From NCBI RefSeq assembly GCF_029168335.1, contig NZ_JARGYC010000001.1, positions 1 through 64,000 of the forward strand: a stretch of DNA of 64,000 nucleotides. The letters run 5' to 3'. Of the stretch, positions 6,733-32,765 are shown one piece after another (positions within the stretch are counted from its first letter, which is position 1; every line of letters starts with the position of its first letter). The position numbers were made by a program, and so were the translations under genes. The notes below the pieces were generated by a model. That model was given only the letters and a program-made list of their open reading frames with translations, was not told the origin of the DNA and searched no databases. This DNA comes from Psychromarinibacter sediminicola. GTDB taxonomy: Bacteria > Pseudomonadota > Alphaproteobacteria > Rhodobacterales > Rhodobacteraceae.

Positions 6733-6775
6733 GGGAGCGCTCCGGTTTTGGGGAGTCATGCGCTTCCGACAAAAA

Positions 6776-6795: not shown

Positions 6796-6912
6796 CGGCC
6801 TATGGTTTGCCCAGGTTTGGCGGCCGCTGCGGCCGGCAGACGAACGAAAACAAGCGTTGCCGCCCGGACGGACAGGGTCATGGCGCACGCACTTCAGCGG
6901 AGGAATTCCGGA

Positions 6913-8245: not shown

Positions 8246-9277
8246 ATGCCGCACAAGACCTTTCTGGCCTTCATCTGGCCGTCACTCTTCGCGATGATCC
8301 TCTTCATCGCGATCCCGATCGTCTCGGTTGGTTTCCAGTCGCTCTATGTCGAGCACGAGCAGATCATGATCGAGGCCGAGAACTGCGGCCCCTTCGGCTG
8401 CAACTCCGAGGTTCGCGTCGATCGCGAGGCGATGGAGCAACTCCGCGAAGAGCAGCCCGCCGGCCGGTTCCACGGTCTCGGCACCTACACGAACCCCAGC
8501 CACCTGGCGATAGACGACATCCGCGAAATCGTCGCCACGTCCGAGAATTTCGGCGAGATCCGCAACCGGATCATGAACCTGCCGTTCTACAAGGCCCTGA
8601 TCTTCACGCTGGCCTATACCTTCATCGTCACGCCGCTGGTGATCGTGCTGGGCTTCATCATCGCGGTGGTGGTCAATTCGATCCCGAATGTCCTGAAGGG
8701 GCCGGTGATCTTCTTCTCGCTCCTGCCGATGATCGTGACGCCGCTGGTGGGCTCGCTGGTGCTGTTCTGGATGATCAACTCCCGCGGCATCCTGGGCGCG
8801 GCGCTCCAGTCGATCTTCGGCGACCCGACGCTGTCGCTCACGGCCTCGCCCGCGCTGACCTGGGTCACGCTTTTCGTCTACGGGGTCTGGCATTCCGCGC
8901 CCTTCGCGTTCGTCGTGTTCTACGCCGGCCTGCAGACCGTACCACGGGATACGCTGGAATCGGCCATGGTGGACGGGGCGAACCGACTGGAGCGGATCCG
9001 CTTCGTCGTGATCCCCTACCTTCTGCCGCTGGCCACGTTCATCGGGCTGATGCAGCTGATGGACAATTTCCGGATCTTCGAACCGATCATCGGCTTCTCG
9101 GCCGCGGCCAGCGCCACCTCGCTGAGCTATCTGATCTACAACGACCTGCGCCTGTCGGACACGCCGTTGTTCGGCTCGGCGGCGGCGACCTCGATGCTCA
9201 CGATCGTCGGGGTGCTGATCCTTCTCACACCGGTGCTGCGCCGCAACTGGCGCGAGTTCAACCGCAAGCCGAGCTGA
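8246..9277 (+). CDS. ABC transporter permease 1 (MalF-like)
   Basis: A 343-residue inner-membrane permease. One hydrophobic helix at about residues 8-28 is followed by a periplasmic segment (about 30-112) and then five more helices. The cytoplasmic EAA loop reads ESAMVDGANRLERIRFVVIPYLLP (about 234-257), which docks on the ATPase. It pairs with the permease 12 bp downstream. The extended periplasmic loop contains two Cys (NCGPFGCN) that could form a disulfide. Second gene of the import operon. Confidence 0.88.
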   Translation: MPHKTFLAFIWPSLFAMILFIAIPIVSVGFQSLYVEHEQIMIEAENCGPFGCNSEVRVDREAMEQLREEQPAGRFHGLGTYTNPSHLAIDDIREIVATSENFGEIRNRIMNLPFYKALIFTLAYTFIVTPLVIVLGFIIAVVVNSIPNVLKGPVIFFSLLPMIVTPLVGSLVLFWMINSRGILGAALQSIFGDPTLSLTASPALTWVTLFVYGVWHSAPFAFVVFYAGLQTVPRDTLESAMVDGANRLERIRFVVIPYLLPLATFIGLMQLMDNFRIFEPIIGFSAAASATSLSYLIYNDLRLSDTPLFGSAAATSMLTIVGVLILLTPVLRRNWREFNRKPS

Positions 9278-9289: not shown

Positions 9290-10171
9290 ATGTCCAATCC
9301 GGCAACGAAGAAACCGATGCCGCTGGTCGCCCTGTCGATCGCGTTCATCGTCATCTGGCTCATGATCGCGGCCTTTCCGTTCCTCTGGACGATGTGGGGC
9401 TCGTTCAAGGTGGAGGGGGACTTCTTTTCCCGCGCCGACTGGATGAACGCGATCACCGGACCGGCGACGCAGCTGCAGACCGGCGGGCGTTTCACGCTCG
9501 AGGGCTATTATGGCGCCTGGGTGGAGCAGGCGTTCTGGCGCAACGCGCTGAACACGCTGATCGTGGTTGTCTTCACGGTCCTGATCTCGCTCACGCTGGG
9601 CACGCTGGGCGGATACGCTCTGGCGCGGTCGGGGTTCAAATACACGTTCTGGATTCTGATGGCGGCGCTGGTGTTCCGCGCCATGCCGCATGTCACGCTC
9701 GTGTCGGGCTACCTGCTGCCCTTCTTCGAGCTGAACATCTGGGGTCACCTGACCACGACGATCGTCGTCCTGGTGGCGATCAACCAGCCCTTCACCCTGT
9801 GGATGCTGCACAGCTTCTTCCTGTCGATCCCCAAGGATCTCGATGAGGCGGCGATGGTCGACGGATGCACGCGGTTCCAGGCGTTCCGGTTGGCGGTGAT
9901 TCCGGTGATGTGGCCGGGAGTGATCACCACGGGGCTGTTCAGCTTCTTGCTGGCCTATAACGACTTCACGGTGACCGCGATGCTGCTGTCGGAGGAGAAC
10001 ACCACCATGGTGCCCCAGATCGACAGCTTCCTTGGGTCGACGCAGGAAAAGGGCAAGGTGATGTACGCGGTCGCCGCGGTGGTCTCTGCGATCCTGCCGC
10101 TCTTCCTGCTCATTCTGTTCTTCCAACGCCAGATCGTGTCCGGCCTGACCGCCGGCGCGGTGAAGGGATAA
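9290..10171 (+). CDS. ABC transporter permease 2 (MalG-like)
   Basis: A 293-residue inner-membrane permease with about six helices. The EAA loop is DEAAMVDGCTRFQAFRLAVIPVMWPG (about 184-209). It forms the heterodimeric channel with the preceding permease. Spacing of 12 bp on each side shows a single transcription unit. The C-terminus ends with the usual short QRQIVSGLTAGAVKG stretch of this family. Confidence 0.9.
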   Translation: MSNPATKKPMPLVALSIAFIVIWLMIAAFPFLWTMWGSFKVEGDFFSRADWMNAITGPATQLQTGGRFTLEGYYGAWVEQAFWRNALNTLIVVVFTVLISLTLGTLGGYALARSGFKYTFWILMAALVFRAMPHVTLVSGYLLPFFELNIWGHLTTTIVVLVAINQPFTLWMLHSFFLSIPKDLDEAAMVDGCTRFQAFRLAVIPVMWPGVITTGLFSFLLAYNDFTVTAMLLSEENTTMVPQIDSFLGSTQEKGKVMYAVAAVVSAILPLFLLILFFQRQIVSGLTAGAVKG

Positions 10172-10183: not shown

Positions 10184-11236
10184 ATGTCCAGACTGCAACT
10201 CAAGAACGTCAGCAAGCGCTGGGGCTCCTTCGTCGGGGTAGACAATTTCGACCTCGACATCGCGGATCAGGAATTTCTCGTGCTGCTGGGGCCGTCAGGC
10301 TGCGGCAAGTCCACCACGATGCGGATGATCGCGGGGCTGGAATCGGTCACGGAGGGCGAGATCTGGCTCGGCGAGAAGATGGTCAACAAGCTCGACCCGA
10401 AGGACCGCGACATCTCGATGGTGTTCCAGTCCTACGGTCTCTACCCGAACCTCACGGTCTACGAAAACATCCGTTTCCCGTTGCGGGTGCGGAAGGTGCC
10501 CAAGGAACAGCATCGCGAGATGGTCATGAAGGCCATCGAGATGGTGGAGCTCGAAGAGTTCATGGACCGACGCCCCGCCGAACTGTCTGGCGGTCAGCGC
10601 CAGCGCGTCGCGCTCGGCCGGGCCATCGTGCGCAAGCCGACGGTGTTCCTGATGGACGAGCCGCTGTCGAACCTCGACGCCAAACTCCGCGTCTCGACCC
10701 GGGCGCAGATCAAGAACCTGCAGTCCAAGTTGAAGGTCACGACGGTCTACGTGACGCATGATCAGATCGAGGCGATGACCCTGGCCGAGCGGGTGGTGGT
10801 GATGAACAGCGGCCGGATCCAGCAGGTCGGCACGCCCACGGATATCTACAACGACCCCGCCAACACCTTCGTGGCAAGCTTCATCGGGTCGCCGGCGATG
10901 AACCTGGTGGAAGGCAAGCTGCAGGACGGCCTTTTCAAGGGGCCGGGCATCCGTGTCGAGGGGCTGCCGAAGCACGCCTCCGGCAATGTCACGCTCGGTT
11001 TCCGGGCCGAGGACGCCGAGATCGTGCCGTCGGGCGGCCAGATCGCCGCGCCGATGTATTCCATCGAGCTGCTCGGCGAGGCCTCGATGATCACCTGGCG
11101 GATCGGCGCCGGCCTGGTCTCGGTCAAGACCAACAAGGACTACCGCGCCGAGATCGGCGATGTCGTCGAGGCCCGGATCCCGGCCGAGATCTGCCACCTT
11201 TTCGATACCGCGAGCGGAGAAAGGATCAAGACTTGA
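10184..11236 (+). CDS. ABC transporter ATPase (MalK/UgpC type)
   Basis: A 350-residue ATP-binding subunit. Walker A GPSGCGKST (36-44), Q-loop FQSYGLYPN, signature LSGGQ (134-138), Walker B VFLMDEP (154-160) and H-loop THDQIEAMT are all intact. A C-terminal OB-fold regulatory (TOBE) region of about 110 residues follows, as in CUT1 ATPases. The stop shares one base with the start of the next gene (TGATG), so transport and catabolism are translated together. Confidence 0.93.
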   Translation: MSRLQLKNVSKRWGSFVGVDNFDLDIADQEFLVLLGPSGCGKSTTMRMIAGLESVTEGEIWLGEKMVNKLDPKDRDISMVFQSYGLYPNLTVYENIRFPLRVRKVPKEQHREMVMKAIEMVELEEFMDRRPAELSGGQRQRVALGRAIVRKPTVFLMDEPLSNLDAKLRVSTRAQIKNLQSKLKVTTVYVTHDQIEAMTLAERVVVMNSGRIQQVGTPTDIYNDPANTFVASFIGSPAMNLVEGKLQDGLFKGPGIRVEGLPKHASGNVTLGFRAEDAEIVPSGGQIAAPMYSIELLGEASMITWRIGAGLVSVKTNKDYRAEIGDVVEARIPAEICHLFDTASGERIKT

Positions 11237-11736
11237 TGAGCCCGCAGGAGAAGGCCGAGGCAACCCGGGCGGTCGTGCGGCGCATGGAAGAGGCGCTGGC
11301 GGCCAACTCGAACGATATGGCCGACCATTTCCATGAGGATTTCCGCTGGATGGGCAACTACGGGTGCGGCACCAAGCCGGATCTCGCCGCGTTCCGCCGC
11401 AACTGGCAGTTGCCGCTTCGCGCCGCCTTCACCGAACGCGACTACAAGACCGAGCAGTTCGTCTGCGAAGGCGACTGGGCGTCCTGTTTCGGCCATATCG
11501 AGGCGACGCATTCGGGGCCTTTCATGGGTATCGCGGCGACCGGGAAGCGGGTGCGCATTCCCTACATGGATTTCTGGAAGATCGAGGACGGGCGCATCCG
11601 GGACAACTGGGTCTCGGTCGATTTCGCCGCGGTCCTGGCGCAGCTCGGCCGCGATGTGTTCGACGGCCAGGGCTGGGAACACTACGACGACGGAACAGCG
11701 GTCCCGCCGCATCCCGAGCGAGGAGAGACGAAATGA
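11236..11736 (+). CDS. Single-domain SnoaL/NTF2-fold protein
   Basis: A 166-residue protein that is one complete SnoaL-like domain: helix bundle [15 protein letters not shown], then strands [42 protein letters not shown]. It resembles the second half of paralogue B at 5677. I use ATG 11236 rather than the preceding TTG, since it overlaps the ATPase stop by one base. Its own stop overlaps the next gene as ATGA. It is probably an enzyme acting on the imported compound; His and Asp residues in the barrel are candidate acid-base groups. Confidence 0.75.
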
Positions 11737-13064
11737 GCGTGAGATACCTCAAGCGAGGCAAGCCCGAAGCCGAGCGCGCGGAAGACGACGCCAAGGTGCG
11801 GGGCGCCGTCGAAGCCGCGCTCGCCGAGATCGGTGCGCGGGGCGACGCGGCCGTCCGCGAAATGGCGGAGAAGTTCGACGGCTACAGCCGGGAAACCTAC
11901 CGCCTGAGCGACGGCGAGATCGAGGCGATCATCGCCAAGGTAAGCGATCGCGAGATGGCCGATATCCGCTTCGCGCAGGAGCAGGTCCGCGTCTTCGCCC
12001 AGGCGCAGCGGGAGTCGATGAAGGACATCGAGGTCGAAACCCTGCCGGGTGTCGTCCTGGGCCACCGCAACATTCCGGTCCAGTCCGTCGGCTGCTACGT
12101 GCCCGGCGGCAAGTTTCCCATGGTCGCCTCGGCCCACATGTCGGTGGCCACGGCCTCTGTCGCCGGGGTGCCGCGCATCATCGCCGCGACGCCCCCCTTC
12201 AAGGGCGAGCCCAACCCGGGCGTGATCGCCGCGATGCATCTGGGCGGGGCGCACGAGATCTACGTGCTCGGCGGGATCCAGGCGATCGGCGCCATGGCGC
12301 TCGGCACCGAGACGATCGAGCCGGTGCATATGCTGGTCGGGCCGGGCAACGCCTTTGTGGCCGAGGCGAAGCGCCAGCTTTTCGGGCGCGTCGGAATCGA
12401 CCTGTTCGCCGGGCCGACCGAGACCATGGTCATCGCCGACGAGACCGCGGCGGACGCGGAACTCTGCGCCACCGACCTGCTGGGACAGGCAGAGCATGGC
12501 TATAACAGCCCCTGTGTTCTTCTAACGAATTCGGAGCGGCTGGCGAAAGACACCATGGCCGAGGTCGATCGCCTGCTACAGATATTGCCCACCGCCGAGA
12601 CCGCGCGCGTCAGCTGGGAGGATTTCGGAGAGGTCATCGTCTGCGACAGCTACGACGAGATGCTCGCGGTCGCCGACGACATCGCCTCCGAGCATGTGCA
12701 GGTGATGACCGACCGGGACGACTGGTTCCTCGACAACATGACCTGCTACGGTGCCCTGTTCCTCGGCCCGCGCACCAACGTGGCCAACGGCGACAAGGTG
12801 ATCGGCACGAACCACACTCTGCCCACCAAGAAGGCCGGGCGCTATACGGGCGGTCTGTGGGTCGGTAAATACCTGAAGACGCACAGCTACCAGAAGATTC
12901 TCACCGACGAGGCCGCGGCAATGATCGGCGAATACGGATCGCGCCTGTGCCTTCTGGAAGGCTTCGTGGCGCATGCCGAGCAGTGCAACCTGCGGGTGCG
13001 CCGCTATGGCGGCGCGAACGTGCCCTATGGCGAGGCGGCGCCCTACCGCGAGGCCGCGACATGA
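11733..13064 (+). CDS. Histidinol-dehydrogenase-like NAD-dependent alcohol dehydrogenase (HpsN-like)
   Basis: A 443-residue member of the HisD superfamily, which oxidises a primary alcohol to a carboxylate in two NAD-dependent steps. Conserved blocks are present: [59 protein letters not shown] (zinc-ligand Gln/His region) and ASEHVQVM (Glu/His catalytic pair). No histidine-biosynthesis genes are nearby. In alphaproteobacteria close relatives are annotated as sulfopropanediol dehydrogenase (HpsN), so a polyol or sulfonated polyol substrate is plausible but unproven. Start ATG overlaps the SnoaL stop (ATGA); its stop overlaps the SDR start. Confidence 0.85.
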
Positions 13065-13825
13065 GCCTGCCGCGCACCCCATCCATGCGGCTCGACGGGC
13101 GGCGGGCGCTGGTGACCGGCGCGTCCTCCGGCATCGGGCAGGCCTGCGCCGCGGCGCTGGCGCAGGCGGGCGCGCATGTCGTGTGTCTCGCGCGCGGTGC
13201 GGAGAAGCTTCAGGCGACGGTGGACCTGATCGCGGAGGAAGGGGGCGCCGCCGAAGCCTGCGTGCTCGACATGAGCGATATCGGCGCGCTGGCGGAGATG
13301 CTGGAGACATACGATCCGTTCGACGTGGTCGTGAATTCCGCGGGTCTTGCCCGGCATTCTCCCGCGCTGGAAACCACGCCCGAGGATTTCGATGCGGCAA
13401 TGGGGCTGAACCTGCGGTCGGCCTACTTCCTGTCCACTGGCGCGGCGCGGCGCATGATCGCTGCGGGCCGCTCCGGCTCGATCATCCATATCGGCAGTCA
13501 GATGGGCCATGTCGGAGGCATCGACCGCGCGGTCTATTGCGCCACCAAGCACGGGCTCGAGGGCATGGTGAAATCCATGGCCATCGAGTGGGGCCCGAAG
13601 CAGGTGCGGGTGAACACCATCTGCCCGACCTTCATCCGGACGCCTCTGACCGCCGCGACCTTCGACAACCCCGAGCGCGCGGCCTGGGTTGCGGAGAAGA
13701 TCAAGCTTGGCCGCGTGGGCGAAGTAGAGGACATCATGGGCGCAGTGCTGTACCTCGCCTCGGATGCCGCCGGGCTGGTCACGGGCACGTCGTTACTGAT
13801 CGACGGGGGCTGGACGGCAGACTGA
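13061..13825 (+). CDS. SDR-family oxidoreductase
   Basis: A 254-residue classical short-chain dehydrogenase. Nucleotide-binding motif TGASSGIG (about 18-25), NSAG (about 90-93), catalytic Ser in [11 protein letters not shown], YxxxK as YCATKHG, and C-terminal [10 protein letters not shown]. It likely interconverts a secondary alcohol and a ketone on the pathway, using NAD(P). The ATGA overlap with the HisD-like gene suggests coupled production of the two dehydrogenases. Confidence 0.9.
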
Positions 13826-14841
13826 TGGGCAACGACCACGTGACATCCCTGCAGGTCGCCCGCCGCGCCGGCGTCAGCCAGTCCGCGGTCTCGCGCGTCT
13901 TCACGCCGGGGGCCAGCGTCTCGGGCAAGACGCGCGAAAAGGTGCTCGCCGCGGCAGAGGAGCTGGGCTACCGGCCCAATGTGCTCGCCCGGGCGATGAT
14001 CACCGGCAAGAGCCGGATCATCGGCCTCGTGGTCGCCTACCTCGAAAACCAGTTCTATCCCGAGGCGGTCGAGCGCCTTTCGGTCGCGCTGCAGCAGAAG
14101 GGCTATCACGTCCTGGTGTTCATGGCCTCGCCCACCAAGGGCGACGTGCAGGACGTGATGCGCGAGATCCTCGACTACCAGGTCGACGGGATCATCCTGG
14201 CCTCGGTCTCGATGTCCTCGGTCCTGGCCAGGCGCTGCCACGAGCACGGCATCCCGGTGCTGTTGTTCAACCGCGCGCAGGACGACGACCGGATGTCCTC
14301 TGTAACGACGGACAATTATCAGGGCGGGCGTGCCATCGCCGCGCATATCGCGAGCCTTGGCCACACCCGCATCGGCTATATCGCGGGGCTGGAAGAGGCC
14401 TCGACACAACGCGATCGCGAGCGCGGCTTTCGCGAGGGGCTGGAGGAGGCCGGACTGTCGCTCGCCGCGCGGGAGCTGGGGAACTTCGAATACGCCAGGG
14501 CGCGAGTCGCCGCGCTGGAGATGTTCGCAGGGCCGGCCCGGCCCGAGGCGGTCTTCGTCTGCAACGATCACATGGCCTTCGCGGTGATGGACGTGATCCG
14601 CTCGAAGCTCGGTCTGCGTATTCCCGAGGATGTCGCCGTCGCCGCGTTCGACGACACCCCGATTGCCGCATGGCCCGCCTATGATCTGACGAGCTACCGC
14701 CAGCCGATCAACCGGATGGTGGCGCAGACCGTGGACGCTCTCTTGCAGCGCATCGAGGACCGGGACGCACCGGCGCGCCGCGTGGTGCTGGAGGGCGAGC
14801 TGATCATCCGGGGCTCCACGACGCCCCGCCAGGAGGGCTGA
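13825..14841 (+). CDS. LacI-family transcriptional regulator
   Basis: A 338-residue regulator. The helix-turn-helix at residues 5-28 (TSLQVARRAGVSQSAVSRVF) and hinge helix (TREKVLAAAEELGYRPNVLARAM) are followed by a periplasmic-binding-protein-like ligand domain (IIGLVVAYLENQFYPEAVERL, TDNYQGGRAIAAHIASLGHTRIGYI, VFVCNDHMAFAVMDVI, VAVAAFDDTPIAAW). It starts in the SDR stop (TGATG) and is followed without gap by paralogue C. Likely represses the cluster through the CG-centred dyads at 5638, 6776 and 23197 and is released by a pathway metabolite. Confidence 0.9.
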   Translation: MGNDHVTSLQVARRAGVSQSAVSRVFTPGASVSGKTREKVLAAAEELGYRPNVLARAMITGKSRIIGLVVAYLENQFYPEAVERLSVALQQKGYHVLVFMASPTKGDVQDVMREILDYQVDGIILASVSMSSVLARRCHEHGIPVLLFNRAQDDDRMSSVTTDNYQGGRAIAAHIASLGHTRIGYIAGLEEASTQRDRERGFREGLEEAGLSLAARELGNFEYARARVAALEMFAGPARPEAVFVCNDHMAFAVMDVIRSKLGLRIPEDVAVAAFDDTPIAAWPAYDLTSYRQPINRMVAQTVDALLQRIEDRDAPARRVVLEGELIIRGSTTPRQEG

Positions 14842-15852
14842 ATGCGCGGCTTCGCACCCGAATGGCGGGACGTTCCGCATTTCGTCATCGGGATCACCAA
14901 GGAGATCTGGGAAGACCGCAAGATCGGCTCGCTCCGGCGGCGCTATGCCGACGGGCTGGTGGTGCGCTCGCCGGCCTCGGTCGTCGTGGACAATTCCGGC
15001 GTGATCGCCGCCACCATGGCCACGCTGGCCGAACTGCCCGACCGGGAGCTTCTGGGCGAAGACGTCATCTGGTGCGAGGATCCCGAGGGAGCGACCGAGA
15101 CCTCGGACGCATACCTGTCGTCACACCGGCTCCTCTGCACGGCGACCCACACCCATCCCGGCATGTACGGCGCGGCCAGCGGCACGCGGCTGCGCTACCG
15201 GATCCTTGCGGACTGCGCGATCCGCGACGACGCCGTCTATGACGAGTGGCTGGTGCGCGACCAGTCGGCGATCGTCCGGCAGATGGGTCTGGGCGTGGTG
15301 GACTGGACCCGCGACCTGATCCGGCGCGAGGGCGGGCCGGACGCCTGCGTGAAGCCCCTGACGCCAGACACGGATGTCGCCGGGCCCTATGACCGGCACG
15401 GCAACGACAGCGCCTGGGCCCAGCGGCTGTCCGACACGCTCTCGTCGATCATGGCGGCCGATTTCGACGTGATCCCGCGCGCCTATGACCGCGCGGCGGC
15501 GCTGCACTACGCCGGCGGGCAAGAGGCCGAGGGCTGGGCCGAGGCGGACAGGTTCTGGATGGGGCTGCGCGCGGCCTTCCCCGGCGCGGAATTCACGATC
15601 GAGCATGCCGTGGGGCGCGACGATCCGCTGGTGCCGCCCCGGGCCGCGATAGGCTGGTCGCTGCACGGCACTCATTCCGGCTGGGGCCGCTTCGGCATGC
15701 CGACCGGGGCGGAGGTCTATGTCATGGGCATCACCCATGCAGAGTTCGGCCCGTTCGGCGGTGGCGATCCGACGATCCGGCGCGAGTACACGCTCATCGA
15801 CGAAACGGCGATCTGGAAGCAGATCCTTCTGCAGACGGGACAGCACGAATGA
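14842..15852 (+). CDS. Double SnoaL/NTF2-fold protein (paralogue C)
   Basis: A 336-residue protein with two SnoaL-like domains. The first covers about residues 5-150 (ITKEIWEDRKIGSLRRRY, LPDRELLGEDVIWCEDPEG, VYDEWLVRDQSAIVRQMGL) and the second about 190-330 (VIPRAYDRAAALHYAGG, THSGWGRFGMPTGAEVYVMGITHAEF, REYTLIDETAIWKQIL). It is a tandem paralogue of the next gene, with which it shares most landmark blocks. The start abuts the LacI stop directly, and the stop overlaps the next start as ATGA. The reaction is unknown; the fold suggests an isomerase, hydrolase or dehydratase. Confidence 0.72.
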   Translation: MRGFAPEWRDVPHFVIGITKEIWEDRKIGSLRRRYADGLVVRSPASVVVDNSGVIAATMATLAELPDRELLGEDVIWCEDPEGATETSDAYLSSHRLLCTATHTHPGMYGAASGTRLRYRILADCAIRDDAVYDEWLVRDQSAIVRQMGLGVVDWTRDLIRREGGPDACVKPLTPDTDVAGPYDRHGNDSAWAQRLSDTLSSIMAADFDVIPRAYDRAAALHYAGGQEAEGWAEADRFWMGLRAAFPGAEFTIEHAVGRDDPLVPPRAAIGWSLHGTHSGWGRFGMPTGAEVYVMGITHAEFGPFGGGDPTIRREYTLIDETAIWKQILLQTGQHE

Positions 15853-16829
15853 AGGGGTTCTCTCCCAGGTTCAGCGACTTGCCGGACTACATCCTGAAGA
15901 TCACGCACGAGATCTGGGAAGAGCGCGGCCTCGCCACGCTGCACCATTACTACGGCAAGGACATTCCGATGCGGTTTCCCTCGGGCCTGGTGCGCGGCAA
16001 TGCCGGGGTGATCGACGGCACGCTGGCAACGCTGGCGGAGTTTCCAGACCGGCAACTTCTGGGCGAAGACGTGATCTGGTCCGAGGACCCGGCGGAGGCG
16101 GGGCGCTACCTGTCGTCCCACCGGTTGGTCACCACGGGCACGCATACAGGCCATGGCGCCTTCGGGGCGCCGACCGGCAAACGGTTCGAGATCCGCGCCA
16201 TCGCCGATTGCGCCGCGAAGGCGGACGTGATCGACGACGAGTGGCTGATCCGCGACGTGGGCGGCATGGCCCGGCAGCTGGGGTGGGAGCCGTCCGACTA
16301 CGCGCTCTACCAGATCGAGCGCGAAGGCGGCCCCGAGGCCTGCGTGCAGCCGTTCCATCCCGATCATGACATGCAGGGGCCCTACACCGGGCGCGGCAAC
16401 GACAACGCTTGGGGCGCGAAGCTCGCGGGTATCCTGCGGCGGATCATGGAGAAGAACTTCACCGTGATCCGCGCGGAATACGACCGGGCGGTGCGGACCG
16501 AACACTGGGGCAGTCGCGGCGGCTGGTCCTGGGAGTTCGCCGAGACCGACTGGATGCGGCTGCGCTCCTCCTTTCCGACCGCGACCTTCGATATCCACCA
16601 CGTGATCGGCCGCTCCGATCCCGGCACGCCGACCCGCGCCGCCGTGCGCTGGTCGCTGACGGGGGAACATGCCGGTGCGGGATATTTCGGCGCGCCGACC
16701 GGCGCCGAGGTGCATGTGATGGGCATCACCCACGCCGAATGGGGCGAATGGGGGCTGAGGCGGGAATTCACGCTGATCGACGAAGTCGCAGTCTGGAAGC
16801 AGATCCTGCTCCGTAAGGGAGGGGTCTGA
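15849..16829 (+). CDS. Double SnoaL/NTF2-fold protein (paralogue D)
   Basis: A 326-residue tandem paralogue of the preceding gene with the same two-domain plan: ITHEIWEERGLATLHHYYGKD, FPDRQLLGEDVIWSEDP, YLSSHRLVTTGTHTGHGAFGAPTG, DEWLIRDVGGMARQLG, then NFTVIRAEYDRAVRTEHWG, GEHAGAGYFGAPTGAEVHVMGITHAEW and REFTLIDEVAVWKQIL. Retention of two diverged copies in one operon suggests either a hetero-oligomer or successive steps. Its TGA overlaps the ATG of a 33-codon frame. Confidence 0.72.
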   Translation: MKGFSPRFSDLPDYILKITHEIWEERGLATLHHYYGKDIPMRFPSGLVRGNAGVIDGTLATLAEFPDRQLLGEDVIWSEDPAEAGRYLSSHRLVTTGTHTGHGAFGAPTGKRFEIRAIADCAAKADVIDDEWLIRDVGGMARQLGWEPSDYALYQIEREGGPEACVQPFHPDHDMQGPYTGRGNDNAWGAKLAGILRRIMEKNFTVIRAEYDRAVRTEHWGSRGGWSWEFAETDWMRLRSSFPTATFDIHHVIGRSDPGTPTRAAVRWSLTGEHAGAGYFGAPTGAEVHVMGITHAEWGEWGLRREFTLIDEVAVWKQILLRKGGV

Positions 16830-16969: not shown

Positions 16970-17935
16970 ATGACACCCCAGGATATGGAACCCCGCATCG
17001 TTCGCTATGGCGAGCTGCAACCCTGCAAGACCGCCTTCATCGACGCCCACACGCCGGGCTCGAACCAGAAGGAGAACTTCACGATCATCGGCGGCGGCGT
17101 TTCGGAAAGCCCCGACCAGCACGTCCACATCTCCATCCCGCACGGCTTCAACATCGGCGCGGCGGGGCAGCCGCCGAAATGCCGCAACTCGCTGCACGAC
17201 CACCACACGGCCGAAGTGTTCTTCGTCCTGTCCGGGCGCTGGCGCTTCTTCTGGGGTCGCTGGGGCACGGCGGGCGAGGTCACGCTGGAGCCCGGCGACA
17301 TCTTCAACATCCCCACCGGGATCTTCCGCGGCTTCGAGAACATCGGCACCGATTACGGGATGATCATGGCGATCCTCGGCGGTGACGATGCCGGGGGCGG
17401 CGTGATGTGGGCCCCCCAGGTGATCGAGGAGGCCGCCGATCACGGGCTGGTCCTGGGCGACAACGGCAAGCTCTATGACAGCAAGAAGGGTCAGCACCTG
17501 CCCGATGGCGTCAAGCCGATGCCGGTGATGAACGAGGACGAGCTCGCCAAGCGGCCCGAGCCTACGACGGCGGATGTGCTGCCGAACCACGTGGCCCGCT
17601 ACTGGGACCTGGTGGCGCTGGCGGACCGCAAGCCCGTGACCGTGATCGGCGAGACCGGCCTGCTGCGCGACCGGCCGGGCTTCGAGGTGGATTTCGTCAC
17701 CCGCGAAAGCGCCACGGAGGAGATGCACAGCTACGATCATCCGTCGGTTCTGATGCCGGTGAAGGGCCACTGGCGCGTGGATTGGGACGGCGGCTCGGTC
17801 GTGCTGGCCCCCGGCGACACCATGAGCGTGCCGGAAAACCTGGCCCATTCTGCGGTCCCGTCGATGACGGGCGAGGCGGCGCTGTATCGCGTCGTCGGCA
17901 CCGACGATCCCGCCGGGGCGACCTGGAGAGGCTGA
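16970..17935 (+). CDS. Bicupin-domain protein
   Basis: A 321-residue protein with two cupin barrels. The first carries a full metal site: HDHHTAEVFFVLSGRWRFFWG (about residues 72-92; His, His and Glu) and EPGDIFNIPTGIFRGFEN with the fourth ligand region. The second (about 225-310: SYDHPSVLMPVKGHWRVDWDGG, LAPGDTMSVPENLAHS) has fewer obvious ligands. Such proteins are dioxygenases or isomerases of the quercetinase/gentisate type, or metal-dependent aldose-acid epimerases. It follows the SnoaL pair by 40 bp beyond the 33-codon frame and precedes a MetE-like gene. Confidence 0.75.
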   Translation: MTPQDMEPRIVRYGELQPCKTAFIDAHTPGSNQKENFTIIGGGVSESPDQHVHISIPHGFNIGAAGQPPKCRNSLHDHHTAEVFFVLSGRWRFFWGRWGTAGEVTLEPGDIFNIPTGIFRGFENIGTDYGMIMAILGGDDAGGGVMWAPQVIEEAADHGLVLGDNGKLYDSKKGQHLPDGVKPMPVMNEDELAKRPEPTTADVLPNHVARYWDLVALADRKPVTVIGETGLLRDRPGFEVDFVTRESATEEMHSYDHPSVLMPVKGHWRVDWDGGSVVLAPGDTMSVPENLAHSAVPSMTGEAALYRVVGTDDPAGATWRG

Positions 17936-18004: not shown

Positions 18005-19129
18005 ATGACCCGAGTTCTGACCACCCATGTCGGCTCGCTCCCTCGGACGCAGGAAGTGGTCGACTTCATCTTCGCCCGCGAACGCGGCGAGGCGCATGAC
18101 GCCGACGCCTTCGACGCCTGCATGACCCGCGCGGTCTCGGACACGGTCCGCAAGCAGAAGGAGGCGGGGATCGACATCGTGTCCGATGGCGAAACCTCGA
18201 AGATCTCCTACGCGACCTATGTGAAAGACCGCTATACCGGCTTCGACGGGGACAGCCCGCGCAACGCGCCGGCCGATCTCAAGGCCTTCCCGAGCTTTCT
18301 CAAACGCATCGCCGACGAGGGCGGGACACCGCAATACGCCCGCCCGATGTGCGTGGGCGAGGTGAAATCCAAGGGGCAGGACGCGCTGCGAAAGGACATC
18401 GACAACCTGAAGGCGGCGATGGACGAGCACGGGGTCGAGCGTGGGTTCATGAACGCGGCGAGCCCCGGGGTGATCTCGCTCTTCCTGCAGAACGATCACT
18501 ACCCGACGCGGGACGCCTATCTCGCCGCCCTGGCCGACGCCATGGCCGAGGAATACCGCACCATCGTCGATGCCGGCCTCGACTTGCAACTCGACTGTCC
18601 GGACCTCGCCCTGTCGCGGCACATGCTGTTCACCGATCTCTCGGACGAGGCCTTCGTCAAGGTCGCCGCTGCCCATGTGGAGGCGCTGAACCACGCGCTG
18701 GACGGCATACCGGAAGAGAAGGTCCGCATCCACATCTGCTGGGGCAATTACGAGGGACCGCATGTCTGCGACATCCCGATGTCCCGGATGTTCGACACGC
18801 TGATGTCGGCCCGCGCGCGCTATGTCCTGTTCGAAACCTCGAACCCGCGGCATGGCCACGAATGGTCCGTGTTCCGCGACCGCAAGGCAGACATTCCCGA
18901 GGACAAGGTGCTGGTGCCTGGCGTGGTGGACACGACCACGAATTTCGTCGAGCACCCGGACCTCGTGGCGCAGCGCATCGCGCGCTTCGTCGACATCGTC
19001 GGGGCGGATCGCGTGATCGCCGGGTCGGATTGCGGCTTTGGCACCTTCGCGGGCTATGGCGCCGTGGATCCGGACATCGCCTATGCCAAGCTCGCGGCCA
19101 TGGCCGAGGGAGCGGCGCGGGTGGCATGA
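18005..19129 (+). CDS. MetE C-terminal-like zinc thiol-alkylating enzyme (EaCoMT-like)
   Basis: A 374-residue protein corresponding to the catalytic C-terminal half of cobalamin-independent methionine synthase. It has THVGSLPR near the start, and zinc ligands H243 and C245 (IHICWG), E277 (LFETSN) and C343 (GSDCGFG). Lacking the MetE N-terminal half, it belongs with stand-alone relatives such as epoxyalkane:coenzyme M transferase and MetE-II types. In this context it is more likely to add or remove a thiol or methyl group on a catabolic intermediate than to make methionine. Overlaps the next gene as ATGA. Confidence 0.78.
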   Translation: MTRVLTTHVGSLPRTQEVVDFIFARERGEAHDADAFDACMTRAVSDTVRKQKEAGIDIVSDGETSKISYATYVKDRYTGFDGDSPRNAPADLKAFPSFLKRIADEGGTPQYARPMCVGEVKSKGQDALRKDIDNLKAAMDEHGVERGFMNAASPGVISLFLQNDHYPTRDAYLAALADAMAEEYRTIVDAGLDLQLDCPDLALSRHMLFTDLSDEAFVKVAAAHVEALNHALDGIPEEKVRIHICWGNYEGPHVCDIPMSRMFDTLMSARARYVLFETSNPRHGHEWSVFRDRKADIPEDKVLVPGVVDTTTNFVEHPDLVAQRIARFVDIVGADRVIAGSDCGFGTFAGYGAVDPDIAYAKLAAMAEGAARVA

Positions 19130-19827
19130 CGCCGCTTGTCCTTCTCCCGGGCATGATGTGCGACGCGCGGCTCTTCGGGCCGCAGTTCGCCGCGTTCTCC
19201 GGGAGCCGGGCCATGCAGTGCGCGCCGATCGGCGGGGCGGCGACCATGACGGAGCTCGCGGCGCAGGTGCTGGCCGACGCCCCGCCGCGCTTTGCGCTGG
19301 CGGGGCTGTCCATGGGCGGGATCGTGGCGATGGAGATCGCCGCGCAGGCGCCGGAGCGGCTGGCCGGCCTGGCGCTTCTGGACACGAACCCGTTGGCCGA
19401 ACGGCCCGAGGTGCAGGCCCGCCGCGCCCCGCAGATGGACAAGGCGCGCGCCGGGGCGCTGCACGCCGTCATGCGCGACGAGATGAAGCCCAACTATCTG
19501 ACCGAGGGGCCGAACCGCACCGCGATCCTCGACCTCTGCATGGAGATGGCGATGGCGCTGGGCCCCGAGCAATTCGTGAACCAGTCGCTTGCGCTGCGCG
19601 ACCGGCCGGACCGGCAGGAGACATTGCGGTCGGTGACATGCCCCACGCTGATCCTCTGCGGATGGGACGACGCGCTTTGCCCGGTGGAGCGGCACGCGCT
19701 GATGCATGATCTGGTGGCCGATAGCCGCCTGGTCGTGATCGAGAGGGCGGGGCACCTGCCCACGCTGGAACAACCCGAAAAGACCAATGCCGCCCTGGCG
19801 GACTGGCTGGAGACAACCGATGAATGA
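19126..19827 (+). CDS. Alpha/beta-fold hydrolase
   Basis: A 233-residue hydrolase. Oxyanion-hole strand LVLLPGMM, nucleophile elbow GLSMGG with Ser62, acid residue in LILCGWDDALCP and catalytic His in RAGHLPTLEQP. It resembles 3-oxoadipate enol-lactonase-like and carboxylesterase proteins, so it likely hydrolyses an ester, thioester or lactone. Coupled to both neighbours by short overlaps. Confidence 0.85.
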   Translation: MTPLVLLPGMMCDARLFGPQFAAFSGSRAMQCAPIGGAATMTELAAQVLADAPPRFALAGLSMGGIVAMEIAAQAPERLAGLALLDTNPLAERPEVQARRAPQMDKARAGALHAVMRDEMKPNYLTEGPNRTAILDLCMEMAMALGPEQFVNQSLALRDRPDRQETLRSVTCPTLILCGWDDALCPVERHALMHDLVADSRLVVIERAGHLPTLEQPEKTNAALADWLETTDE

Positions 19828-20515
19828 CGAGCTTCTGACGCTCCTGCAAAGCGTCGACACGCCCACGATCTGCAACGCCATCGAGACCGCGCAGGGCACG
19901 CGCGGCTTCGACGCCTATACCCGCGGCACCGTGCAATGCTCCGACCCCGAAGCGCCTGCGATCGTGGGGTATGCCGTGACTGCGCGGATCGCCGCTCTGG
20001 CCCCACCGGAAGACCCGGCCGAGGAGGTCCGGGCCCGCCGCATGGCCTATTACAAGGCGATGGCCGAGGGGACGAAGCCGTCGGTCGCGGTGGTCGAGGA
20101 CCAGGATTACCCGAACTGCGTGGGCGCATACTGGGGCGAGGTGAACACGAGCGTGCACAAGGGCTTCGGCATGTCCGGAGCGGTGACCAACGGGGTGATG
20201 CGGGATCTGGGCGACCTCGCCCCCGGCTTTCCGGTGATCGCGGGGTCGATCGGGCCCAGTCATGCCTTCGTGCATGTCACGGAGATCGATGTCCCGGTCA
20301 CGCTCTTCGGCCTGACGGTGCGGCCGGGCGACCTGGTACATGCCGACCGGCACGGCGCGGTGGTCATCCCGCCGGAGCTGCTCGAGGCGCTGCCTGCGGC
20401 CATCGACAAGATGCGACGCACGGAAGACCTGGTCCTCGGTCCCGCCCGCGAGGACGGCTTCGATTTCGAGACGTTCGAGGCGGCATGGAGCGCTTTCGAG
20501 AAGGCCCGTACATGA
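19820..20515 (+). CDS. RraA-like aldolase/decarboxylase
   Basis: A 231-residue protein of the RraA/HMG-aldolase family. Visible landmarks: VDTPTICNAIE at the start, the central GxxTNGVMRDL block (SGAVTNGVMRDLGDLAPGFPVIAGSIGP), and RPGDLVHADRHGAVVIPPE with the metal-binding Asp region. Relatives are divalent-metal class II aldolases for 4-hydroxy-4-methyl-2-oxoglutarate and oxaloacetate decarboxylases; true RNase-E inhibitors are shorter. A retro-aldol or decarboxylation step late in the pathway is plausible. The start overlaps the hydrolase gene by 8 bp. Confidence 0.82.
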   Translation: MNDELLTLLQSVDTPTICNAIETAQGTRGFDAYTRGTVQCSDPEAPAIVGYAVTARIAALAPPEDPAEEVRARRMAYYKAMAEGTKPSVAVVEDQDYPNCVGAYWGEVNTSVHKGFGMSGAVTNGVMRDLGDLAPGFPVIAGSIGPSHAFVHVTEIDVPVTLFGLTVRPGDLVHADRHGAVVIPPELLEALPAAIDKMRRTEDLVLGPAREDGFDFETFEAAWSAFEKART

Positions 20516-21861
20516 CGGACAGCCCGTGCGACCTGACCCTCGCGGAGGCCGGCAGAGCGCTCCGCAGTGGACGGTTGACCAGCGAAGCACTGACGCGCGC
20601 CCATGTCGACCGGATAGAGGCACAGGACGGACGGATCGGCGCCTTCGTCCATGTCGCGGCGGAGGAGGCCCTGGCCGCGGCGCGTGTGGCGGATACGCGG
20701 ATGCAGGCAGGAACGGATCTCGGACCGCTGCACGGAATTCCTTTCGCGGTGAAGGACGTGATCGACGTCGCCGGCTGGCCGGTTCGCTGGGGCTCGCGCC
20801 TGCAGGCGACGCGGCGGGCGCGCGAGACGGCGCCGGCGGTGCAACGCCTGATCGATGGCGGGGCCGTGCCGCTCGGCCTCGTGGCAAGCTATGAGATGGC
20901 GACCGTCGGACCCGACGCCGAAAGCCTCTATCCACAGCCGAAGAACCCATGGAACAGGGATCACGTGACGGGCGGTTCTTCCTCCGGGTCGGCGGCCGCG
21001 GTGGCGGCAGGGCTGGTGCGGCTGTCCCTTGGCACGGATACCGGCGGATCGGTGCGCAGCCCGGCGTCCTATTGCGGCGTCGTAGGGTTGAAGCCGACCG
21101 CAGGTGCAGTGCCGCGGGACGGCGTCATGGAATTGTCGGGGACAATGGATCACGTCGGAGTCGTCGCGCGAACGGCCGCGGACGCAGCCGCCGCGGCGGC
21201 CGTGCTGTCGGGGCAGGTGGCCGGGTCGGAGCGCGCGGTCGCCGGGCTGCGTCTCGCCTACGGACGCGGCTGGGCCGAGGACGAGGCGGCCCACGCGGAC
21301 CTGATGCCGCTGCTCGATGCCGCGGCCTCGGTGCTCAGCCTGTGTGGCGCGACGGTACAGATCCGCGCACTGCCGGACTATGCGGGGATCGAGACGGTCG
21401 GCTCGGACATCCTGCTGTCGGAAGGCTTTGCCGCGCATGGGGCCGATGTGGCGGCGGCCGATGCCGAGGCGGTCGGACCGATGGCGCGGGCCAGTATCCT
21501 GTCGGGCGGCGAGATCGGAGTGGCGCGGCTGAAGGCGGCGCGCGCGCGGGTCGAAACGCTTCGGACGCAGATCGAGGCGCTGCTGGCCGACCACGATGCG
21601 CTGATCCTGCCCACGACGTTGACGCCCGCCCCGGCCTTTTCGGCCTTCCGGGCCGGGGTTCCGGTCTGGACGCCGATGCGTACCATACCCTTCAACCTGA
21701 CCGGGCATCCGGCGCTTTCCGTGCCGATGGGATATGCCGACGGTCTGCCGATGGGATTGCAGATCGTCGGACGGCATGGCGACGACGCGACGGTGCTGGC
21801 GATCGGCGCCGCCTTCGAGGCGGCGACCGATCATTCCGTGCTTCAGCCGGCCTTCGCCTGA
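20512..21861 (+). CDS. Amidase (amidase-signature family)
   Basis: A 449-residue amidase with the Ser-cisSer-Lys triad: K81 (FAVKDVIDVAG), S156 (GGSSSGS) and S180 (TDTGGSVRSPA). It hydrolyses an amide, suggesting that the imported compound or an intermediate carries nitrogen. It is the last gene of the rightward operon; its 3' end overlaps the converging HisD-like gene by 19 bp. GatA is unlikely because gatB/gatC are absent. Confidence 0.88.
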   Translation: MTDSPCDLTLAEAGRALRSGRLTSEALTRAHVDRIEAQDGRIGAFVHVAAEEALAAARVADTRMQAGTDLGPLHGIPFAVKDVIDVAGWPVRWGSRLQATRRARETAPAVQRLIDGGAVPLGLVASYEMATVGPDAESLYPQPKNPWNRDHVTGGSSSGSAAAVAAGLVRLSLGTDTGGSVRSPASYCGVVGLKPTAGAVPRDGVMELSGTMDHVGVVARTAADAAAAAAVLSGQVAGSERAVAGLRLAYGRGWAEDEAAHADLMPLLDAAASVLSLCGATVQIRALPDYAGIETVGSDILLSEGFAAHGADVAAADAEAVGPMARASILSGGEIGVARLKAARARVETLRTQIEALLADHDALILPTTLTPAPAFSAFRAGVPVWTPMRTIPFNLTGHPALSVPMGYADGLPMGLQIVGRHGDDATVLAIGAAFEAATDHSVLQPAFA

Positions 21862-23138
21862 AGGCGGTCGAGCCGCAGCTGCGCGGCACGGCGATGCCCG
21901 TCGAGCCCCTCGCTGGCGCTCTGGCGCACGGCGGGGGGCGCGACCGCCTTCACGCCCTCGGCATCCATCCACTGATGCGTGACCGTCTTGACGTAGCTGC
22001 CGACCCAAAGCCCGCCGGTGTAACGGGCCGCCGCCATGGTGGGCAGCGTGTGGTTCGTGCCGCAGCACTTGTCGGAGTAAACGACGCTGGCCATCTCGCC
22101 GATGAACAGAGAACCGTAGTTCCGCAGCTCTCTGGCCGTCGCCTGCGGGTCGGCGGTGTGGACCTGCAGGTGTTCGGCGGCGATATGATCGGAATAGGCG
22201 ATCATCGCGGTCGTATCCTCGCAGATCGCGATCTCGCCCTTGGCCTCCCAGGCCTCCCGCGCGGTCTCGGCTGTCGCGAGTTCGGTGAGCTGGCGGGCGA
22301 CCTCTGCCTCGACGGCTTCGGCCAGCTTGGCATCGGTGGTGATCAGGCCGACCCGGGTTTTCACGTCATGCTCGGCCTGAGCAAGCAGGTCGGTCGCGAT
22401 CATCTCGGCGTCGCCGGTCTGGTCGGCGACAACGTAGATCTCGGACGGACCTGCGAGCTGGTCGATACCGACGGGGCCGAAGACCTGCCGTTTCGCCTCG
22501 TTCACGAAGGCATTGCCGGGGCCGACGATCTTGTCCGTCGCCGGCACCGTCTCGGTGCCATAGGCCATGGCTGCGATGGCCTGCGCGCCGCCGATCAGGA
22601 AGATCCGGTCGGCGCCGGACAGGTGGCAACCGGCGATCATCGCGCGGTGGGCGTTGGGCGGTAGGCAGGCGATCACCTCGTCCACGCCGGCGACCTTGGC
22701 CGGGACGATGGTCATGATCGGCGCGGACAAAAGCGGGTAACGCCCGCCAGGGACGTAGCAGCCCACGCGCCCGATGGGGATGATGCGGTGGCCCAGATGC
22801 ACGCCGGGGCGGATCTCGACGTCGAGCGGCAGCATCGTCTCAAGCTGCGCCTCGGCAAATCTGCGTACGTTTGCAATCGCGAATTCGGTATCTTCCCGGG
22901 TCTGCGGATCGAGCTCTGCCAGGGCAGCTTCGCGCGCCTCCGGTCCGACCTCGAAGGACGTCAGGTCGCTCCGGTCGAACTTCTGCGCGTATTCGGTGAC
23001 GGCCGCATCGCCGCGCTCCCGCACGGCAGAGAGGATCTCGGATACGGTCTTTTCCAGATTGGAGGCTTCCGCGCCCGCGGTCTCGGACGGGCGGCGGAGA
23101 TGGCGGACGCCCTGGAAGCTGGCGGCATGGGTAAGCAA
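21843..23138 (-). CDS. Second histidinol-dehydrogenase-like enzyme
   Basis: About 431 residues. HisD-superfamily blocks: [82 protein letters not shown] and [12 protein letters not shown]. It is clearly diverged from the copy at 11733, so the two probably act on different alcohols, or on the two enantiomers of one. The frame is open up to 23204; I prefer TTG 23138, close to family N-termini and leaving operator 3 (23197-23216) in the promoter. It converges on the amidase gene and belongs to the same regulon. Confidence 0.8.
22861..22876. promoter_or_regulatory. Possible auxiliary LacI-type operator inside the HisD-like gene
   Basis: CTGCGTACGTTTGCAA contains the same ACGTTTGCAA half as operators 1 and 3, about 340 bp inside the gene from operator 3. 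LacI-type repressors often loop to such internal sites. It also codes for conserved protein sequence, so chance is possible. Confidence 0.25.
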
Positions 23139-23196: not shown

Positions 23197-23216
23197 AATT
23201 GCAAACGTATTCACTT
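23197..23216. promoter_or_regulatory. LacI-type operator 3
   Basis: AATTGCAAACGTATTCACTT is a CG-centred dyad with 7 of 9 paired positions matching. It lies about 60 bp upstream of the leftward HisD-like gene. The core TTGCAAACGTAT matches the reverse complement of operator 1 (ATACGTTTGCAA). Confidence 0.55.
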
Positions 23217-23386: not shown

Positions 23387-25852
23387 CTATGGCTGTCCTG
23401 TCTCTGCCGTCACGAAGGGAAACCAGCCCGTTTCACCGACGAGCACGGACGGGGTGCCTGCCCCGTCTCGCATGACAAGCTGGCAATTCTCGATCTCGGT
23501 TTCCTCCCAGACCCACCTGTCGCAGAGGCGCGCGTCGACGACGCGGCTTCGTCCCTCTCTCGCGCGCGGCAGCGGACCGAAGGCGCCGTCCTGGAACAGC
23601 ACGCCGTCGGCCGTGCGCACCTGGGTCCAGTCCTGCAGGACGAGCCATGTCCGGCGACCGGCAATCCGGCGGTCGAACAGGCGCTCCTCGATCTCCGCCC
23701 CCGAGAGCGGGACCGCCCGCGCCATGTTCTGCGCGTCCTCCGCCTCGCCGGAGGCCTCGAACAGTCGGTTGCGGAACCGCGCATCGACCGCCGCGTCCGC
23801 GAAACGGATCAGGGTCGCGGCCTCTGCCGCGGTCGGCCGCCGCCATGTCGCGGCACGCGGGTTCTCATAGGTCACATCGCCCATCCGCCAGGCGCCGAAG
23901 GGGCGGCTTTCCAGGGCCGCGACAAGCTCCCGGAACGCGGCGCGCGACGCCGCTTCGTCCGCGCCGGCGAGGATGGCGGACCGCAGGGCGAGGAGCTGCA
24001 GCGGACGGCCCCGCGCTGTCAGGAACGCCGTCTCGACCGCCTCGCGGGCGCGGTCCATCTCATCGTCGGCAAAGGCCGCGAGTCCCAGCGACAGGTATCC
24101 GTCCTCCGGCGCGGCCGGCGACAGCACGATCGCCCGGGTCGCAAGACGCCTCGCGGCATCCGTCTCGCCGGTGAGCGCGAGGCTTCGCGACAGAACCGCG
24201 AGCGCGCCGACATGAGCGCTGTCCAGGTCGAGTGCCCGCCGGGCGAGATCCTGCGCCGCAAGATGGTCGAGGCGGCGCAGCGCGAGCCTTGACCGTGCGG
24301 CCAGGATATCGGGGTGTTCCACATTGGCCGCGGCAAGCTCCCGTTTCAGCCGCAAGTAACCTTCCAGCCAATGCAGCCCCGCGGCGCGGGCGAAATCGTC
24401 CGCCCCGAAGGCGACCCGTTCGTAGGCGATGGCCAATCCTGCAACGGGTTCGGGGGCGTCGGGATGCGCCTCGGCCAGCTCGGTCAGCCGTTCGATGGCC
24501 TCTGCATTGCCCTCGGGCGCGCCGGAATGCAGCCGGCCGAGGGCGGCCAGATAGGCCGGTACGGCGGCCTCGGGAAGTGCGACCGGCTCGGTCGCGGGCA
24601 AGGGTGTCAGCGCGATGCCGATCCCCTCGGAGATCCGGGTGACGGTCGCGTCGCGCACGGCGCGAAGCGCGTCTTCCGATCCGGCGAAGCGGTCGGCCCA
24701 GATCTCGCGCCCGCCATCGGTTTCGGTGATCCAGACGTTAAGCACCCACCGGTCCTCGTCGCTCCGCATGCGTCCGCGCAGGACGTGACTGGCGCCGCTC
24801 GACGCCTCGTCCCCATCCGCCACGAGGCGCCCGCTTTCGCGCGACAGCACGTCGATGTCGGACCGCCGGACGAGCGCTGTCGAGAGGTCGTCGGAAAACC
24901 CGCGCGCAAGGTCCGGCGCCACCCCGTCGCCCGCGTCAAAGGGGCGGACGAGCAGCCGGACGATATCCGGGTCGGGCCGGGGGCCGGGGGCCAGCGTCGC
25001 CCACAGGAGCGCCGCGCCGAGAAGGACGGCGCCTGCCATCGCGATGACGACGGGCCGGAGCGCCGGGACAGGCCGGCGGGGGCGGCTGGCGTTCGAGGCC
25101 GCGTCGTCGAAGGCGCCGGCGCGGATCCGCGCCGCGAGGTCGGCAAGCGCGTCGGACGGCGCGATGCCGAGATCCGTGGAAAGCAGCGTGGCGAAGGCGT
25201 CCGCGGCCTCGATGGCCGCGGCGGGGCGTCCGGCGCGGGCAAGCAGCAGCATCCGGACGCGCAGGGCCGGTTCGTTGTAGGGGTCGATCGACAGGAGCCG
25301 GTCGACGAGCGGCATCTCCGCCGCCTCCGGCGCACGCTCCCAGGCCGCCATCAGGGCGGTGCCGCCGTCGACAGCATAGCCCTCAAGCCGCGCGCGTTCG
25401 GCCGCGCGCCATTCCGCGTAGCCCTCCTCCGTGTCGATGGAGAGATCGTCGAGGAACGGGCCTTCATACAGGTTCAGGCAACACCTCTGCCCGGCCTCGC
25501 CGCCTTCCGTGAATGCTGCTTCGAGCTCCCAGGCGTCGGCCGATAGGAGATCGGCGTCGAGCGCCACGGTGTCGGGCCGGGCCTTGATGAGATCCGGGGC
25601 CGTCCCGTTAAGGGCGCGGCGCAGGCTGTAGAGCGCCTGGCTGAGCGAGGCCAGCGACTGGCGCGTATCGACGCGGGACCACAGAAGGTTGGCAAGCTGC
25701 TCGCGCCGGAGCGGCTGACCCTTGGCCATGACGAGAACGGCCAGGAGCGCGCGCGCCTTCCGTGTCTCGATGGGGATCGGACGGCGATCGCCGGTGGCAA
25801 GCGCGAACGTGCCGAGAAGGGTAGCCTGAAGCCGCGTCATCCCATCGAGCAT
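23387..25852 (-). CDS. BTAD/winged-helix regulator with TM, TolB-like and TPR-type regions
   Basis: An 821-residue multidomain protein. Residues about 5-95 form an OmpR/SARP-type winged helix (TLLGTFALATGDRRPIPIETRKARALLAVL, QLANLLWS, SLSQALYSLRRAL). About 100-255 is a bacterial transcriptional activator domain. A membrane helix lies near 275-293 (PVVIAMAGAVLLGAALLWATL). About 300-420 is a TolB N-terminal-like segment, followed by TPR-like helices to the end. This plan occurs in alphaproteobacterial regulators related to the CadC/adenylate-cyclase TPR group. DNA binding at the membrane is implied; targets are unknown. An in-frame ATG at 25840 is an alternative start. Confidence 0.75.
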   Translation of the reverse strand: MLDGMTRLQATLLGTFALATGDRRPIPIETRKARALLAVLVMAKGQPLRREQLANLLWSRVDTRQSLASLSQALYSLRRALNGTAPDLIKARPDTVALDADLLSADAWELEAAFTEGGEAGQRCCLNLYEGPFLDDLSIDTEEGYAEWRAAERARLEGYAVDGGTALMAAWERAPEAAEMPLVDRLLSIDPYNEPALRVRMLLLARAGRPAAAIEAADAFATLLSTDLGIAPSDALADLAARIRAGAFDDAASNASRPRRPVPALRPVVIAMAGAVLLGAALLWATLAPGPRPDPDIVRLLVRPFDAGDGVAPDLARGFSDDLSTALVRRSDIDVLSRESGRLVADGDEASSGASHVLRGRMRSDEDRWVLNVWITETDGGREIWADRFAGSEDALRAVRDATVTRISEGIGIALTPLPATEPVALPEAAVPAYLAALGRLHSGAPEGNAEAIERLTELAEAHPDAPEPVAGLAIAYERVAFGADDFARAAGLHWLEGYLRLKRELAAANVEHPDILAARSRLALRRLDHLAAQDLARRALDLDSAHVGALAVLSRSLALTGETDAARRLATRAIVLSPAAPEDGYLSLGLAAFADDEMDRAREAVETAFLTARGRPLQLLALRSAILAGADEAASRAAFRELVAALESRPFGAWRMGDVTYENPRAATWRRPTAAEAATLIRFADAAVDARFRNRLFEASGEAEDAQNMARAVPLSGAEIEERLFDRRIAGRRTWLVLQDWTQVRTADGVLFQDGAFGPLPRAREGRSRVVDARLCDRWVWEETEIENCQLVMRDGAGTPSVLVGETGWFPFVTAETGQP

Positions 25853-32761: not shown

Positions 32762-32765
32762 GACA

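Follow-up and report, generated by a model that had tools for sequence, protein, structure and literature searches.

Tandem double-SnoaL proteins in a LacI-controlled catabolic regulon conserved in marine Rhodobacterales

The window, by which we mean the whole analysed stretch of 64,000 nucleotides (positions 1 to 64,000 of contig NZ_JARGYC010000001.1 of Psychromarinibacter sediminicola, assembly GCF_029168335.1), carries between 4.4 and 23.2 kb a gene cluster in the order A, B, CUT1 ABC importer, E, HDH, SDR, LacI, C, D, cupin, MetE-like, alpha/beta hydrolase, RraA, amidase and HDH2. A to E are proteins with SnoaL domains, and C and D are the subject of this analysis. The features are as follows.

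4422–5627, minus strand: protein A, two-domain SnoaL protein of the two-domain lineage of C and D (start at 5627 or 5591 likelier than at 5714)
5639–5654, no strand: LacI-type operator-like site upstream of A, two mismatches
5677–6759, minus strand: protein B, two-domain SnoaL protein of the second lineage (AlphaFold2 pLDDT 89)
6778–6793, no strand: putative LacI-type operator TTGCAAGCGTATTCAA, between B and the transporter operon, one mismatch
6892–8148, plus strand: CUT1-type ABC solute-binding protein (SBP)
8246–9277, plus strand: ABC permease 1 (from sequence; orthologue annotated as sugar ABC permease)
9290–10171, plus strand: ABC permease 2
10184–11236, plus strand: ABC ATPase
11233–11736, plus strand: protein E, with one SnoaL domain that most resembles the C-half of B-type proteins
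11733–13064, plus strand: HDH, HisD/HpsN-like dehydrogenase with an invariant GKFPM loop
13061–13825, plus strand: SDR dehydrogenase
13822–14841, plus strand: LacI-family regulator
14842–15852, plus strand: protein C, 336 aa, two-domain SnoaL-fold enzyme of the C clade, window-type subclade
15849–16829, plus strand: protein D, 326 aa, two-domain SnoaL-fold enzyme of the D clade (AlphaFold2 pLDDT 96; domains at about 5–146 and 184–322)
16970–17935, plus strand: cupin protein with conserved metal-type histidines in its first domain
18008–19129, plus strand: MetE C-domain-like protein with invariant HxC, E and C zinc ligands
19126–19827, plus strand: alpha/beta hydrolase
19787–20515, plus strand: RraA-like aldolase
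20512–21861, plus strand: amidase
21843–23138, minus strand: HDH2, second HisD-like dehydrogenase, GRYPL loop (open reading frame listed to 23204, start uncertain)
23199–23214, no strand: LacI-type operator-like site upstream of HDH2, two mismatches

C and D are 52% identical over their full length, their genes meet in an ATGA overlap that recurs in most of the tandem loci checked, and the codon-position GC of both is normal for the genome. Pfam matched PF07366 (SnoaL) in all five proteins, A to E; the scores of C and D are weak, and their SnoaL assignment is clear by structure. The 5.03-Mb genome has ten PF07366 stretches in seven genes, and eight of the stretches and five of the genes fall within 12.4 kb. 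With a binomial P of about 2e-12 for one given interval, to be multiplied by some 400 such intervals, chance grouping is excluded. The remaining two matches of the genome lie outside the window (G000:C122:45197–45559 and G000:C214:2090–2476).

AlphaFold2 models were obtained for D (pLDDT 96.1, pTM 0.93; 42 sequences) and B (pLDDT 88.7, pTM 0.88; 30 sequences). Searched with Foldseek and VIA-align, the N-half of D matched SnoaL, AclR, IdmH and SnoaL2 and its C-half matched ketosteroid isomerase (KSI) and limonene epoxide hydrolase (LEH), both halves reaching Z 13–16 at about 2–3 Å against SnoaL/KSI/LEH structures. The best two-domain Foldseek matches were Lsd19 for D, and Lsd19 together with MonBI-MonBII for B. 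We conclude that D and B, as modelled, each consist of two SnoaL/KSI-like domains; the SnoaL/NTF2-like alpha+beta cone is present in each half, in D and B by AlphaFold2 and in A and C by profile. The earlier note on this DNA had described C and D as adjacent paralogues on a shared double-SnoaL plan, and identity, gene overlap, profiles and fold all agree with that description; no fold other than SnoaL appeared in D or B.

Comparison of half-domain profiles separated two lineages. The N-half of C/D matched that of A at E 2e-43 and the C-half that of A at 7e-23, against just 1e-7 between the two halves of C/D themselves. The N-half of B paired with other B-type N-halves and its C-half with B-type C-halves, and E was closest to B-type C-halves (4e-27 with the B-prime set, B-type genes that other clusters carry between HDH and SDR). 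This pairing of halves implies that the two-domain plan was in place before A and C/D diverged and likewise, in the other lineage, before the B group split. It also upholds the suggestion that A belongs with C/D and that B and E form a second subgroup.

The operator pattern TTGNATNCGNATNCAA was derived from one site of locus L085 compared with the window and then run on all loci, and was thus chosen on part of the data on which it was tested. With at most one mismatch it was counted 93 times over the 100 loci, in most cases ahead of B, HDH or an importer gene; a 30-locus subset gave 25 sites against 0 after shuffling that preserved base composition only and not dinucleotides. If two mismatches are allowed, the window contains four sites; dinucleotide shuffles average 1.0, and 3 of 100 reached four. 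A search for near-perfect palindromic operators found almost nothing. Because it is conserved across loci, the site at 6778 is a well-supported candidate operator, and the positions of those at 5639 and 23199 are suggestive of the same function. As listed, the open reading frames of A (4422–5714) and B (5677–6783) would contain the sites at 5639 and 6778, which argues that these starts are too long; the true starts are probably 5627 or 5591 for A and 6759 for B. With a LacI gene in the operon and operator-like sites before A, B/SBP and HDH2, the proposal that these genes form one regulon was upheld. The regulon is adjoined by a gene for an 821-aa protein with OmpR-type DNA-binding and BTAD domains (23387–25852, minus strand). 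A separate catabolic-looking region at 29205–41848 holds two family III CoA-transferases, a FAS1-type dehydratase-region protein and parts of a branched-chain-amino-acid-type ABC transporter.

To describe the wider setting, we counted the neighbours of C/D homologues at 80 loci, the best 80 of at least 559 matches ranked by likeness to D; they are nearly all from marine Rhodobacterales and, being top scorers, are no random sample. LacI was found at 77 of them, HDH at 73, cupin at 71, SDR at 69, B-type genes at 65, MetE-like at 64, the ABC genes at 60–66, RraA at 59, E at 54, alpha/beta hydrolase at 48, A at 6 and amidase at 4. In an even sample of the window's family, nearly all of different genera, D had a match at 1e-10 in 91 of 198 genomes (a few through an A-type protein only), and across the phylum 23 of 398 genomes had one at 1e-15. 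The named loci include the abundant pelagic lineages Planktomarina and HTCC2255. We conclude that C and D lie in a catabolic regulon that is conserved around their homologues in marine Rhodobacterales. The cluster was not described in the open-access literature that we searched for SnoaL or ester cyclase with its partner genes or with roseobacters.

Variant clusters occur outside the roseobacters. A Pantoea dispersa plasmid carries LacI, a C/D-type gene, A (67% to the window's A), HDH2 (64%) and amidase, with A adjoining HDH2 and amidase, and on the opposite side cupin, a citrate-lyase-type aldolase, alpha/beta hydrolase, SDR and HDH (68%). On a plasmid of Deinococcus sp. QL22, a tandem array of four A-type SnoaL genes (L126:11189–14987), of which one encodes a single domain, accompanies two HisD-like genes, SDR, LacI, cupin, hydrolase, aldolase and importer. 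Ensifer plasmid pC combines importer, C, a citrate-lyase-type aldolase, hydrolase, OtnK, aldolase, LacI and cupin, the OtnK and aldolase being additions known from sugar-acid pathways. In these clusters from Pantoea, Deinococcus and Ensifer, a citrate-lyase-type aldolase stands in for RraA, which speaks for a retro-aldol reaction as the last step. A Vibrio pelagius plasmid (L124:8505–18143), a probable case of horizontal transfer, has the importer and four double-SnoaL genes (three B types and one C type) next to sarcosine oxidase genes, and the other enzymes of the cluster are not nearby. Four double-domain SnoaL proteins in one regulon had been called exceptional in the earlier note: the cluster is indeed dense within its genome, but several SnoaL proteins are usual for this gene set, as the Deinococcus and Vibrio versions illustrate.

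In a tree of 126 rows, C and D formed two clades with supports of 98 and 86. Assignment by clade gave 49 C-only loci, 29 D-only loci and 17 with both among 95 loci (window counted). The window's own C belongs to a subclade (FastTree support 0.999) of 16 distinct loci, in 13 of which it lies directly beside D; the three others are genome G153, Ensifer plasmid pC and genome G119, whose D gene is on another contig. These exceptions came from a search with C as query and from locus L128, beyond the 80 loci ranked by D. In the family sample, 16 genomes had a C of the wider group, with D adjacent in nine, a D-like gene elsewhere in six and neither in one; a D-like gene, defined as one with higher identity to D than to C, was thus present in 15 of the 16. 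The D gene of genome G049 is split into two overlapping matches (L031:8768–9732) and may be frameshifted; its C is intact.

These distributions bear on how C and D work together. It had been suggested that they assemble as heteromers, and an obligate complex comparable to the paired polyether epoxide hydrolases would fit the ATGA overlap, the adjacency of window-type C to D and the fold comparisons, whose best matches include two-domain Lsd19 and a MonBI-MonBII complex of solved structure. However, most clusters have C or D alone, which weakens the idea; some genomes hold C and D at separate loci, G153 and Ensifer pC have no adjacent D, and the gene order in tandem loci varies between C-D and D-C. 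Obligate pairing in general is therefore not supported, although window-type C is co-conserved with D and may form a heteromer with it in that subset; we regard an obligate heteromer as unlikely. Redundant, isofunctional copies with a mere dosage effect appear less likely still: either gene can fill the one slot between LacI and cupin, and either suffices in most clusters, but the two clades are old, differ in near-fixed fashion at positions 41, 43, 46, 57, 97, 105, 139, 202, 219 and others, and have been paired long enough for the paired C and D to have subclades of their own. The pattern looks rather like a core activity supplied by a D-type or a solo C-type protein, with the window's C, found beside D in nearly all its loci, as a specialised and dependent add-on that most likely serves a related second step or a variant substrate.

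Catalysis in SnoaL relies on Asp121 with Asn33, Gln105, His107 and His119 (PMC6830212). We mapped these residues from E to the SnoaL structure 1sjw, which E matches at 2e-9, and then from E to C/D, using sequence profiles that are weak for the C-half. In 111 sequences, the N-half has an invariant Ala119 where SnoaL has His107 and an invariant Leu133 in place of Asp121; by the weaker alignment, the C-half has Thr/Ser294 and Thr308 there. Since neither residue is kept, C and D would not be ester cyclases of the SnoaL type. Both halves do have invariant charged residues elsewhere (R42, D74, H91, R92, H99, D130, D136, R213, H251 and others), so catalysis likely proceeds through another residue set. 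The Pfam name, SnoaL polyketide cyclase, and the automatic annotation 'ester cyclase' would make these proteins polyketide-type cyclases of a biosynthetic cluster. That reading is largely refuted by the replaced residues and by neighbours that are an importer, LacI and dehydrogenases; no polyketide synthase was present among the cluster genes of the window or the recurrent neighbours of the homologue loci, and we find it hardly credible. The NTF2-like fold serves binding in other families, and the Vibrio pelagius set has just importer and SnoaL genes, as might be expected of ligand-binding or sequestering proteins. The invariant charged residues and the location in an enzyme operon speak against such a role, which we consider very improbable; that the SnoaL proteins are pathway enzymes is well supported.

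The loop of HDH reads GKFPM in 87 of 87 sequences and that of HDH2 GRYPL in 5 of 5. HpsN carries GRY(A/S)H, with the sulfonate-binding His126, and HisD carries GSAPL (PMC11382572). HDH has neither loop and retains the catalytic Glu-His and Asp of both enzymes, a combination that points to HDH probably making a carboxylate from a different primary alcohol; it appears to represent a third specificity class, distinct from those of HisD and HpsN. Catabolism of the sulfonate DHPS, considered because HDH is nearest to HpsN, was ruled out by the loop, by which HDH is not a DHPS dehydrogenase. The MetE-like protein, present in 64 of 80 clusters, keeps the zinc ligands HxC, E and C in 80 of 80, the ligand set (His, Cys, Glu, Cys) of cobalamin-independent methionine synthase. 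In P. inhibens, a core-MetE homologue does not prevent methionine auxotrophy (PMC12478193), and the cluster protein may be among the marine 'core-MetE' homologues of that study. The unassigned open reading frames of the homologue loci held no recurrent dehydratase family; recurrent extras near the operon, judged by eye from their sequences, look like a GMC oxidoreductase (10 loci) and a methyltransferase (6 loci). Comparison of the SBP with solved structures gave weak matches only, which do not name a ligand.

From the fold, the gene context and the lack of a recurrent dehydratase, we infer that the double-SnoaL proteins carry out proton transfer or dehydration. In the scheme that we propose, the CUT1 importer would feed the LacI-controlled regulon, NAD-dependent HDH and SDR would oxidise the substrate, and the double-SnoaL proteins would then perform cofactor-free proton transfer (dehydration, isomerisation or hydration) on sugar-acid-like intermediates ahead of the closing reactions, hydrolysis by the alpha/beta hydrolase and retro-aldol cleavage by RraA. 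The double-SnoaL proteins would thereby take the place of the IlvD/enolase-type dehydratases of ordinary non-phosphorylative sugar pathways. Several observations weigh against the scheme: the MetE-like zinc protein misfits a plain sugar-acid pathway, SnoaL-fold proteins vary widely in activity and include non-enzymes, the Vibrio pelagius set has importer and SnoaL genes without the remaining enzymes nearby, and the catalytic residues of SnoaL itself are missing. Weighing both sides, we think that the scheme as a whole is somewhat more probable than otherwise.

A broader possibility, which we raise tentatively and rate below that scheme, is a widespread and undescribed marine catabolic pathway in which double-SnoaL sets replace metal-dependent dehydratases. 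Such a pathway would also include a HisD-fold dehydrogenase of a third class and a MetE-like alkyl transferase of the zinc-thiolate kind. The importer-plus-enzyme set is common to a large share of marine roseobacters, and a set so common and so conserved implies a common marine compound. Present annotations call the genes for its breakdown ester cyclases, histidinol dehydrogenase and methionine synthase. Identifying the substrate would mend annotations across marine roseobacters and give the double-SnoaL proteins a testable catabolic function.

Among known systems, the SnoaL and AknH polyketide ester cyclases (PF07366; 1sjw, 2f98) share the fold of each half and are the best sequence family, whereas here two domains are fused, His107 and Asp121 are not conserved and the context is catabolic. 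The polyether epoxide hydrolases Lsd19 and MonBI-MonBII (3rga, 4rzm, 9kw6) likewise pair SnoaL/KSI-like domains, and the double enzymes of the Lsd19 type, which hydrolyse epoxides by means of acidic catalytic pairs, have two such domains in one chain, as do D and B. The identity is nevertheless low (11–16%), no polyether pathway accompanies the cluster, and an rmsd of 16–19 Å over both domains indicates that the relative placing of the domains differs. The DHPS 3-dehydrogenase HpsN (8v35, 8wwe) is the closest solved sequence to HDH (E 3e-115) and shares its Glu-His and Asp but differs in the diagnostic loop. Operons for non-phosphorylative catabolism of sugars and sugar acids contain an importer, LacI, dehydrogenases, a hydrolase and an aldolase, all of which they have in common with this cluster; in place of an IlvD/enolase dehydratase, the cluster has several double-SnoaL proteins, and a cupin and a MetE-like protein besides.
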